Shown here: piece by piece, positions 12,610-14,631 of the stretch
Layout: each line of letters starts with the position of its first letter
Numbering within the stretch: position 1 is the stretch's first letter
Assembly: GCA_017940545.1 (NCBI GenBank)
Contig: JAGAYI010000023.1
Location: 1 to 41,748 of the forward strand
DNA: 41,748 bases
From: Prevotella sp.
GTDB lineage: Bacteria; Bacteroidota; Bacteroidia; Bacteroidales; Bacteroidaceae
Direction: 5' to 3'
Made by a program: the position numbers and the translations under genes
The notes under the pieces: model-generated
The model's database searches: none
Seen by the model: the letters and a program-made list of their open reading frames with translations, nothing else
What the model was told of the DNA's origin: nothing

Positions 12610-13804
12610 ATTCTCCTGCCATTTCTTTGTGAGACAAATAAGTTTCCACGTCCTTGTCGCCACGTCCGCTGACCGTCAGAACGACCACATCGTCGGGCTT
12701 GAACTGCATTTTCTGTAGGGCCGCTATGGCATGGGCTGATTCCAGTGCGGGAATGATTCCCTCCATGCGAGTCAGTTCGTAGGCAGCCCTGACGGCTTCG
12801 TCGTCGTTAATGGAATATACCGTTGCGCGGTGTTGTGTGGCCAGGTTGGCATGCATGGGTCCGATGCCGGGATAGTCCAGACCGGCAGAGATGCTTTCAG
12901 CCTCAATGATTTGTCCATCAGGCGTCTGCATGACCAACGTTTTGGAACCATGCAAGATGCCCAGATGCCCGGCATGGATTGTTGCTGCCGTATGTCCGGT
13001 ATCGGCGCCCTGACCACCAGCCTCAGCCAGCACTATTCTGACGCGTTCGTCGTCGATATAGTGGTAAATGGTTCCGGCCGCATTGCTGCCGCCTCCCACA
13101 CAAGCCATCAGTATGTCGGGATAGTCACGACCAATCTTTTCCTGCAGTTGTTCTTTGATCTCCTTCGAAATGATGCTCTGAAGGCGGGCCACCATGTCAG
13201 GGTAGGGGTGGGGCCCTACCGTAGAACCTATAATATAAAAGGTGTCAGCGGGATGACAACACCAGTCGCGGATGGCTTCGTTGGTGGCATCTTTCAGTGT
13301 CCAGTTGCCCGTCTTCACCGGTCGTACCTCTGCTCCCAACATCTTCATCCGCTCCACGTTCACATGCTGACGCTCCACGTCGAGAGCTCCTTGATAGACG
13401 ACGCAAGGCATGTCCATCAGAGCACATACTGTGGCGGTGGCCACGCCATGCTGACCAGCTCCTGTCTCGGCTATGATACGCTTCTTGCCCATCTTCTTGG
13501 CCAGCAGAATCTGTCCGATGGTGTTGTTGATTTTGTGTGCGCCGGTGTGGTTCAGGTCTTCACGTTTCAGGTAAAGGCGGCAACCATATTTCTCACTCAT
13601 GCGTCGGGCCAGGTAGAGTGGACTGGGGCGCCCCACATAGTCGCGTAACAGCGACATGTACTCTTCCTGAAACTCGCGACTCTCAAGAATGGGCAGATAC
13701 TCCTCTTGCAGTTTCTGCACTGTAGCATAGAGAATCTCGGGAACATAAGCCCCGCCAAACTCTCCATAAAATCCTTTTTCGTCAACTAAATAGCTTTTCT
13801 TCAT
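12596..13804 (-). CDS. trpB: Tryptophan synthase beta chain
   Basis: 402 residues (family about 390-410). HTGAHKINN holds the lysine that binds pyridoxal phosphate, ETGAGQHG and GGGSNAAG are the cofactor and substrate loops. It condenses indole and serine to tryptophan. It is the first structural gene of the operon, directly behind the leader and attenuator at 13859-13983, so it and everything downstream should respond to charged tRNA-Trp. The start ATG at 13804 has no Shine-Dalgarno site, as usual in this phylum. Confidence 0.96.
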   Translation of the reverse strand: MKKSYLVDEKGFYGEFGGAYVPEILYATVQKLQEEYLPILESREFQEEYMSLLRDYVGRPSPLYLARRMSEKYGCRLYLKREDLNHTGAHKINNTIGQILLAKKMGKKRIIAETGAGQHGVATATVCALMDMPCVVYQGALDVERQHVNVERMKMLGAEVRPVKTGNWTLKDATNEAIRDWCCHPADTFYIIGSTVGPHPYPDMVARLQSIISKEIKEQLQEKIGRDYPDILMACVGGGSNAAGTIYHYIDDERVRIVLAEAGGQGADTGHTAATIHAGHLGILHGSKTLVMQTPDGQIIEAESISAGLDYPGIGPMHANLATQHRATVYSINDDEAVRAAYELTRMEGIIPALESAHAIAALQKMQFKPDDVVVLTVSGRGDKDVETYLSHKEMAGEYGNF

Positions 13805-14100: not shown

Positions 14101-14132
14101 TTTGTTTTTTAACCTTTAATGTTGTATATTTG
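14101..14132 (+). promoter_or_regulatory. Promoter of the + strand small RNA
   Basis: TTTG (14101-14104), 20-base spacer, TATATTTG (14125-14132): an exact consensus match on the + strand where no protein gene follows. Confidence 0.75.
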
Positions 14133-14137
14133 CCAAC

Positions 14138-14255
14138 GATAAGACAACATTTCGTTTAAAATGCATCTTATCATTCGTGTTTGTGAGGTTGGTAGCGTCC
14201 TGCACCAACCTCTTCTGTTATGTAAAAAAGCCTGACCTCACGGCCAGACTTTTTC
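14138..14255 (+). ncRNA. Candidate small RNA (about 118 nt)
   Basis: From the likely start 6 bases after the promoter, the + strand holds three stem-loops in a row: GATAAGA/TCTTATC with an inner CATTT/AAATG (14138-14172); GAGGTTGGT/ACCAACCTC (14185-14212); and the terminator at 14228-14251 with a T-run. No ORF of useful length lies inside. The set of consensus promoter, stacked hairpins and terminator is what a stand-alone sRNA looks like. It might belong to a known Bacteroidales RNA motif; I cannot identify which. Confidence 0.6.
14224..14254. terminator. Bidirectional terminator between small RNA and riboswitch transcript
   Basis: A 10-bp stem (14228-14237 with 14242-14251, two G-U pairs) with TCAC loop. 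T-runs flank it on both strands (14250-14254 on +, 14224-14229 on -). It ends the + small RNA and the - strand riboswitch transcript. Confidence 0.8.
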
Positions 14256-14345
14256 CTAACTTATATAATAATACACGTACGGTCCATTCGCGAAGAAACC
14301 GCGTTTTACCATTCCCCGTGAGGAGATGATGTTAATCGTAATCAC
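14256..14345 (-). CDS. Small ORF after the cobalamin riboswitch (29 aa)
   Basis: Begins at a GTG overlapping the stop of the preceding 16-codon ORF, or at an internal ATG at 14312 (18 residues). It ends directly against the terminator. The C-terminal half (MVKRGFFANGPYVYYYIS) is aromatic and not random-looking. I know no function; it may be a leader-type peptide or simply part of a structured RNA. Confidence 0.35.
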   Translation of the reverse strand: MITINIISSRGMVKRGFFANGPYVYYYIS

Positions 14346-14395
14346 TATTGTTGTTTGTTAGCCTCAATCTTCCTTACATCGAGGAACTTCGGCAT
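14345..14395 (-). CDS. Small ORF directly behind the B12 box (16 aa)
   Basis: ATG at 14395, 12 bases after the end of the B12 box, encodes MPKFLDVRKIEANKQQ, then TAG. The next ORF overlaps its stop codon by one base. Its position is where a riboswitch would control translation start. No Shine-Dalgarno site. Existence as a peptide is not shown. Confidence 0.35.
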   Translation of the reverse strand: MPKFLDVRKIEANKQQ

Positions 14396-14404
14396 CTTAA
14401 CATA

Positions 14405-14617
14405 TAAGGCAGGTCTTCTGACTTTGTTCCAACTACAGACTCCTTCCCATTTTTCCCTTGCATTGAGGGCCAAACAGTGGATTTTGCCTTGTCTGTAGTG
14501 TATAAAGGAACTTACAGCTGCGGGACAGTCGGAGATTTACACTCACATTCCCCTTTAATCGCTGTTATGCGAACCTTAATGTGTCCGTACTTGCTGACAT
14601 GACGTCAGGTCGCTTAG
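14405..14617 (-). ncRNA. Cobalamin (B12) riboswitch
   Basis: On the - strand the aptamer shows GGTTC, then AAAGGGGAATGTGAGTG, CCCGCAGCTGTAAG, CCACTG, GGGAAGG and, at 14408-14424, the B12 box AAGTCAGAAGACCTGCC. These are the ordered conserved blocks of adenosylcobalamin/cobalamin riboswitches. No transporter or cobalamin gene follows: downstream come two tiny ORFs and a terminator, then on the same strand the separate trp promoter. The 5' boundary is estimated from the promoter. Confidence 0.92.
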
Positions 14618-14623
14618 ACTGTG

Positions 14624-14631
14624 CAAAGGTA
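14624..14631 (-). promoter_or_regulatory. -7 element of the riboswitch transcript
   Basis: TACCTTTG on the - strand, with TTTC instead of TTTG 20 bases upstream. It would start RNA a few bases before the aptamer. Confidence 0.6.

Follow-up and report, generated by a model that had tools for sequence, protein, structure and literature searches.

A gene-less cobalamin riboswitch transcript of Prevotella carries a conserved seed predicted to act on methylmalonyl-CoA mutase mRNA

RyhB and other cofactor-sparing small RNAs are made when a cofactor is scarce and lower the enzymes that use it, RyhB being switched by the Fur protein. EutX of Enterococcus is reportedly a gene-less transcript behind a B12 riboswitch, and the B12-dependent pathway concerned is said to be off without the cofactor. 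In Listeria, Rli55 likewise joins a B12 riboswitch to a gene-less transcript and a B12-dependent pathway that is off without the cofactor, and it acts by sequestering the EutV protein through an ANTAR element (PMC8079631). In AspocR (Rli39) of Listeria monocytogenes, a B12 riboswitch governs a noncoding RNA that is produced at full length when B12 is absent and that represses a function serving a B12-dependent pathway, probably by base-pairing; AspocR is antisense to pocR, a regulator gene on the opposite strand (PMC8079631). The riboswitch transcripts SreA and SreB, also from Listeria, pair in trans with the 5' UTR of prfA, but their ligand is SAM, the terminated RNA is made with ligand, and the available part of this source describes no separate seed-plus-terminator module (PMC8079631). 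Another paper, judging by its available text, concerns the small RNA OmrA acting on btuB (PMC11162775), and two more bear no relation to the subject (PMC7160235, PMC9600662). Among the openly licensed PMC papers listed in literature searches, no report of an RNA composed of riboswitch, seed and terminator was found.

Rumen Xylanibacter and Prevotella make propionate, a major energy source for the host, in a B12-dependent manner. In Xylanibacter ruminicola KHP1, B12 raises the RNA and protein of mutA and mutB by log2 1.3-1.7, a modest effect for mutA, and marginally raises mmdB, mmdC and oadG RNA; overall, only three proteins increase with B12, and the study reports higher abundance of the two mutase subunits (PMC11575231). 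The transcript of the adenosyltransferase gene pduO also rises with B12 in this strain (PMC11575231). The strain has four cobalamin riboswitches, and because none is close to any of the B12-raised genes just named the authors set them aside as not directly involved, calling the mechanism unknown and favouring post-translational control (PMC11575231, 2024). Their introduction mentions the antisense RNA of Listeria as a precedent that had yet to be explored. In the same study, the genes near riboswitches are among the most changed in RNA, which fits control at the RNA level, and genes lowered by B12 show larger changes; the direction of change for the six-gene operon of KHP1 is not given in the available text (PMC11575231).

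The window, i.e., the whole 41,748-nt stretch analysed here, is contig C48 of a 2.2-Mb Prevotella assembly that is 70.5% complete. The first-pass annotation had described a cobalamin riboswitch with no gene behind it, followed by tiny ORFs and a strong terminator, and these parts of its description are borne out by the following features:

14624..14631, minus strand: putative -7 box TACCTTTG, read by eye from the sequence, with a likely transcript start at about 14618
14392..14593, minus strand: cobalamin riboswitch aptamer RF00174 (cmscan, 80.2 bits, E 2.6e-18)
14370..14386, minus strand: small hairpin TTCCTCGATGTAAGGAA directly 3' of the aptamer, with a similar form in several relatives
14256..14345, minus strand: mechanical 29-codon ORF with a GTG start, containing MVKRGFFANGPYVYYYIS, judged to be no gene because its frame is not favoured in relatives
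14258..14279, minus strand: conserved seed TACGTGTATTATTATATAAGTT, predicted to be antisense to the translation-start regions of mutA and oadG
14224..14254, minus strand: terminator hairpin with a GUGA loop and T-run, the predicted RNA 3' end (sequence, stem covariation and covariance model)

The covariance search that had been proposed for the aptamer places it far above the gathering score (31.5 bits) and recovers it in a whole-genome search as well; it is the sole Rfam match inside the window at gathering thresholds, and the genome has two further cobalamin riboswitches, both on contig C25. The interval from the riboswitch to trpB, which starts at 13804, holds no ORF of at least 100 aa, and about 110 nt without a credible gene lie 3' of the riboswitch before the terminator is reached; the same-strand neighbours are a ROK-family glucokinase gene upstream and trpB downstream. 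We take TACCTTTG to be a Bacteroidota-type -7 box, and TANNTTTGC-like boxes stand just 5' of the riboswitch in several relatives; a -33 TTTG at the usual spacing from TACCTTTG was not found in the window. The hairpin TTCCTCGATGTAAGGAA is possibly part of the expression platform. A simple terminator scan of the window returned no terminators and thus did not list the hairpin, whereas the covariance model of the module described below matches at 14279-14216 with 69.9 bits, a score that is partly so by construction because the window is one of the 52 sequences in the model; the independent support for the terminator comes from the 51 others. A discrete transcript is possible: a putative promoter was read by eye, and the terminator is conserved and covarying. 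On the minus strand, a leader peptide MTKLMNAWWWRNSRFK with three Trp codons (13983-13933) precedes trpB, and a terminator-like hairpin (approximately 13890-13853) lies between the two in what reads as a classical attenuator arrangement. With trpB seemingly equipped with its own leader peptide and terminator, the riboswitch transcript looks like a separate unit, and read-through into trpB as its main product, which the annotation had considered, is disfavoured.

A search of the whole stretch against 60 relatives, together with a peptide search, pointed to conservation at the nucleotide and not the peptide level, in a 22-nt element, UACGUGUAUUAUUAUAUAAGUU, which adjoins the covarying terminator hairpin. 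The 18-mer CGTGTATTATTATATAAG was present at up to one mismatch in 83 of 249 genomes of the genus (Prevotella in the broad sense), a count that includes a few chance or target-side matches, while the reversed-pattern control gave 2 matches. Besides the window's own, 92 places of this 18-mer were fetched, and a simple pattern for a B12 box and aptamer core motif was found upstream at 59 of them. A second set, with named contigs, contained at least 119 stretches, mostly labelled Prevotella, Prevotellaceae or Bacteroidales and many of them from ruminants; among the matches listed were Xylanibacter ruminicola D31d, Prevotella communis E15-14 and P. koreensis, and two stretches labelled Clostridium and Ruminococcus, from which the module was absent, were left out. 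Once near-duplicates, cases at contig ends and 13 matches that were unrelated or in target orientation had been discarded, 146 distinct places were left, 105 of which have a B12-box match within 450 nt upstream.

In an alignment of 52 sequences (the window and 51 others), the seed is nearly invariant and all 11 predicted pairs of the terminator stem show compensatory changes, a combination that points to the plan of a base-pairing small RNA; as in trans-acting RNAs of this kind, the conserved seed sits beside a terminator and lacks a coding frame. A covariance model built from these sequences (R1) matches 90 of 200 genus genomes at E ≤0.001. An order-wide sample of 247 genomes, which span 174 genera and include, among those listed, two other members of the family, gave a match to the model in the window's genome and in 0 of the 246 others. 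A plasmid search returned no match. A two-mismatch search for diverged elements in 12 genomes was uninformative in number (126 matches versus 149 in the reversed control); 30 of these matches were inspected, and a few with a terminator were kept. Some variant elements have deletions or insertions, and several of these nevertheless fit the mutA leader found in their own genome.

The module stands behind B12 riboswitches at many unrelated places, about half of them gene-less. By a mechanical count, 56 of the 105 loci with riboswitch and element have no same-strand ORF of 100 aa or more that begins in the next 170 nt, 48 have an ORF after the module, and one has the element inside an ORF start. 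The genes that typically follow encode TonB receptors or a flavodoxin-like protein, and one truncated TonB representative hits the B12-receptor model TIGR01779 with a score under its threshold. Where no riboswitch is close by, the element is often found in intergenic positions within cobalamin operons (CbiK, CobJ/CbiC). An Rfam search of 20 short loci of this sort found one riboswitch, located 3' of its element (L095), and among 18 loci of 8 kb without a box-pattern match RF00174 was detected in 11, always upstream on the same strand at a distance of 181 to 5,428 nt, with the remaining 7 yielding no riboswitch. By the B12-box and RF00174 counts, then, most copies of the seed are linked to B12-riboswitch transcripts. 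Twelve of the loci lacking a nearby riboswitch have the element inside the start of a longer ORF.

In four loci (L045, L048, L104 and L110), the seed overlies the start of a CbiK-type ORF beginning with MKYVYYYIS or alike, and the usual GUGA terminator is absent; the ORF of L048, the one among them that was tested against Pfam, is CbiK, and the DNA of L153 and L226 is similar to this arrangement. Such a CbiK-type mRNA would be seed-bearing and is possibly a sponge or a source of processed RNA. A flavodoxin-like protein of 132-133 aa (weak NCBIfam matches) follows a B12 riboswitch in L106, L046, L062, L065, L067 and L116, and this gene occurs either with the seed module in between or without the module (L015, L016).

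Five of the 92 places fetched first carry the element inverted, just 5' of a start codon. One of these (L066) precedes mutA, the methylmalonyl-CoA mutase small subunit as identified by its N-terminus, and the other four (L055, L102, L109 and L120) precede a single gene type, the representative of which (L055) matches OAD_gamma, PF04277. We therefore compared 50 mutA leaders, comprising the best 30 matches taken regardless of the element, the window's own genome and 19 others (17 element-bearing). In the 60 nt next to the start codon, 38 of the 50 leaders (20 of the 30 unselected and 18 of the 20 others) have a stretch of 10 nt or more that is exactly complementary to the seed and 12 do not, compared with 4 of 336 other ORFs taken from loci L129-L208, or 2 of 121 in the AT-rich subset of these controls. 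Dinucleotide shuffles of the mutA leaders gave a mean of 0.8 and a maximum of 4 of 50 over 300 runs. The same 50 leaders contained the element itself in no case, its reverse in none and its unreversed complement in one, and each of four neighbouring 60-nt windows scored 0 of 50. Complementarity to the start region of an unlinked mRNA is thus beyond chance, and different mutA leaders retain different halves of the complement. In the window's own assembly, the 14-mer ACTTATATAATAAT occurs at exactly two places, before mutA and in the riboswitch RNA; the mutA site is 15 nt long, lies 17 nt before the start codon and has a predicted duplex energy of -18.2 kcal/mol. In 100 genus genomes, this 14-mer has 66 occurrences versus 2 for the reversed control; some of the 66 are elements, others lie at mutA or lactate permease, and others have no evident role.

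Seed and target also vary together. In 54 genomes that have both, native element-mutA pairs have a mean energy of -16.8 kcal/mol, compared with -14.6 kcal/mol for mismatched pairs, and none of 20,000 permutations reached the native sum, either for all 54 genomes or for the 24 with variant elements, although p-values overstate independence here because the genomes are related. One variant group lacks three seed bases and its leaders fit that, and two genomes (G207 and G167) have altered seeds with matching mutA leaders; across the 24 variants, the genome's own element pairs better than the standard one in 17 and worse in 7. Co-variation of seed and target, as expected of a base-pairing small RNA, is thus seen in permutations over related genomes. 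Moreover, mutA is present in 83 of 90 model-positive genomes versus 50 of 110 others at E ≤0.001, and in 83 of 86 versus 50 of 114 at E ≤1e-4. mutA is missing from seven model-positive genomes, of which G034, G139 and G173 match the model well. Within the unselected set of 30 mutA loci, the 20 from model-positive genomes have longer matches than the 10 from other genomes (p = 0.005, subject to the same relatedness). Strong mutA sites without a model match were found in G143 (16 nt) and, as the exact 14-mer, in G112 and G020, both 91-92% complete.

Two further candidate targets are oadG and the lactate permease gene lctP, for each of which 30 loci were taken out of more matches. A complement of at least 10 nt is present in 11 of 30 oadG and 9 of 30 lctP leaders versus 4 of 336 other ORFs, and absent from 19 and 21, respectively. 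By model status, the matches fall in 9 of 19 model-positive versus 0 of 11 other genomes for lactate permease, and in 9 of 19 versus 2 of 11 for oadG. The native lctP pairings in 19 genomes show the same trend as those of mutA (3 of 20,000 permutations). The oadG site of the window's own genome is 13 nt long; a lactate permease gene was not found in this assembly, which is 70.5% complete. In X. ruminicola D31d, an orphan riboswitch-seed-terminator locus, with the next ORF on the other strand, coexists with a 16-nt site before oadG and the 14-nt ACTTATATAATAAT before mutA. As a single case, a perfect 14-nt site in L331 (1004-1017) overlaps or abuts the start of a 328-aa ORF that has no Pfam match at E ≤0.001.

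Collectively, the comparative data make it probable that the locus encodes a riboswitch-controlled base-pairing RNA that represses mutA and the succinate-to-propionate branch when B12 is scarce. The noncoding RNA would be about 390 nt long and consist of the cobalamin riboswitch, a linker, the invariant seed and the terminator. When cobalamin is scarce, the riboswitch would let the RNA be made or accumulate, and the seed would then base-pair with the mutA mRNA leader at a site that ends no more than about 25 nt from the start codon and, in part of the species, with the leaders of oadG (a decarboxylase gamma/delta-like subunit) and lactate permease. Pairing is predicted to block ribosome entry and to lower the target mRNAs and proteins, so that the cell would spare B12 by lowering the succinate-to-propionate branch whenever the cofactor of that branch is missing. 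From the sequence comparisons we infer a transcribed RNA whose level falls with B12 and a seed-leader pairing that takes place and represses. Over 105 loci, the seed is not clearly more open than in shuffles (median unpaired 0.45 versus 0.41), and across 41 loci the linker contains no conserved anti-seed (mean z -0.01). Masking of the seed by the linker, for which these 41 loci give no conserved-partner signal, was rejected, and the lack of an anti-seed makes premature termination or control of stability more likely. The wider proposal, which we hold to be likely, is that a seed-plus-terminator module has spread among gene-less RNAs, btuB-type leaders and cobalamin-operon spacers, forming an RNA-only, genus-wide B12-sparing regulon on mutA, oadG and lactate permease in which sensor and antisense effector would be one molecule.

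An orphan-riboswitch RNA with distant targets would account for the B12-dependent rise of methylmalonyl-CoA mutase in X. ruminicola, and would be a trans-acting riboswitch RNA in Bacteroidota, a phylum in which, to our knowledge, few base-pairing RNAs are understood; it also serves as a warning that riboswitches without a gene may themselves be regulators. The logic is analogous to that of the iron-sparing RyhB, with the difference that the Prevotella RNA carries its own cofactor sensor. Unlike AspocR, it is predicted to act on unlinked mRNAs through a 19-22-nt seed and to target the B12 enzyme itself; its mutA target does not lie on the opposite strand of the same locus, mutA being on contig C31 and the element on C48. 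Whereas Rli55 relies on an ANTAR element, the part conserved here is AU-rich and complementary to mRNAs. The Listeria cases are set apart from this RNA by phylum, by its dedicated seed, predicted to target unlinked mRNAs of the B12 enzyme's pathway, and by the spread of the module.

Several other readings of the locus were weighed. The same RNA could work with the opposite sign, being made or released with B12 bound, or activating or stabilising the mutA mRNA by pairing; we regard this as rather unlikely, since the sites fall within translation-start regions, at which pairing as a rule blocks ribosomes, and since the seed, located 5' of the terminator, is contained in both the short and the read-through RNAs. 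The 48 of 105 loci with an ORF after seed and terminator speak for it, as there the terminated short RNA could be the ligand-bound product, of which SreA is an example (PMC8079631). The rise of mutA with B12 in KHP1 is also what an activating RNA made with B12 would give, although the larger changes reported among genes lowered by B12 in that strain (PMC11575231) are as expected of classical OFF switches. In another reading, the element and the mutA leader are both bound by an RNA- or DNA-binding protein, and the transcript is a decoy such as Rli55 or EutX. Its orphan plan of riboswitch, element and terminator without a gene does resemble Rli55, but the match is strictly reverse-complementary (38 of 50 leaders versus 0 of 50 for the element itself), the halves of the complement kept differ between mutA leaders, and changes in the element are partly mirrored in the leaders, all of which renders a decoy very improbable.

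The transcript might instead be the idle, attenuated remnant of a leader that has lost its transporter gene, as the first-pass annotation had envisaged in the form of a recent deletion. The ORFs after the element at 48 of 105 loci, often for TonB receptors or the flavodoxin-like protein, are in keeping with such an origin; however, the 56 gene-less loci in the same count, the nearly invariant seed and covarying terminator, with no decay of the seed seen in orphan loci, and the conserved complement at mutA make this extremely unlikely. As to the B12-controlled product, the annotation had offered either the transcript as a regulatory RNA, which strong comparative evidence supports, or a small peptide, to which the frame counts leave hardly any room. 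The 29-codon ORF with MVKRGFFANGPYVYYYIS does exist (GTG start, 14345-14256), as do other short mechanical ORFs, and the 12 longer ORFs starting in the element, including the MKYVYYYIS-type starts of L045, L048 (CbiK), L104 and L110, might suggest a B12-controlled small protein or leader peptide. However, among 43 orphan-type loci an upstream ATG without a stop occurs in the YVYYYIS frame in 8 and in the other two frames in 9 and 16, and some variant elements shift the frame. The back-translated pattern GPYVYYYI was found in 2 of 200 genus genomes, which, given how common the nucleotide element is, indicates that the peptide is not what is shared, and the upstream part of the ORF is not common to relatives. 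The peptide was rejected on these counts, and its YVYYYIS part corresponds to the conserved RNA.

Two further observations concern neighbouring units. In L050 and L097, a riboswitch-seed-terminator unit lies approximately 270 nt before a same-strand anaerobic ribonucleotide reductase gene (identity tested for L050). In the window, a second, unrelated small-RNA-like unit is located on the plus strand (14125-14212), consisting of a box TATATTTG followed by a strongly conserved hairpin GAGGTTGGTAGCGTCCTGCACCAACCTC, of which the fetched loci contain 21 distinct instances including the window's; T-runs stand behind this hairpin in relatives, some instances lie beside the ROK gene, and the unit converges on the terminator of the B12 RNA.
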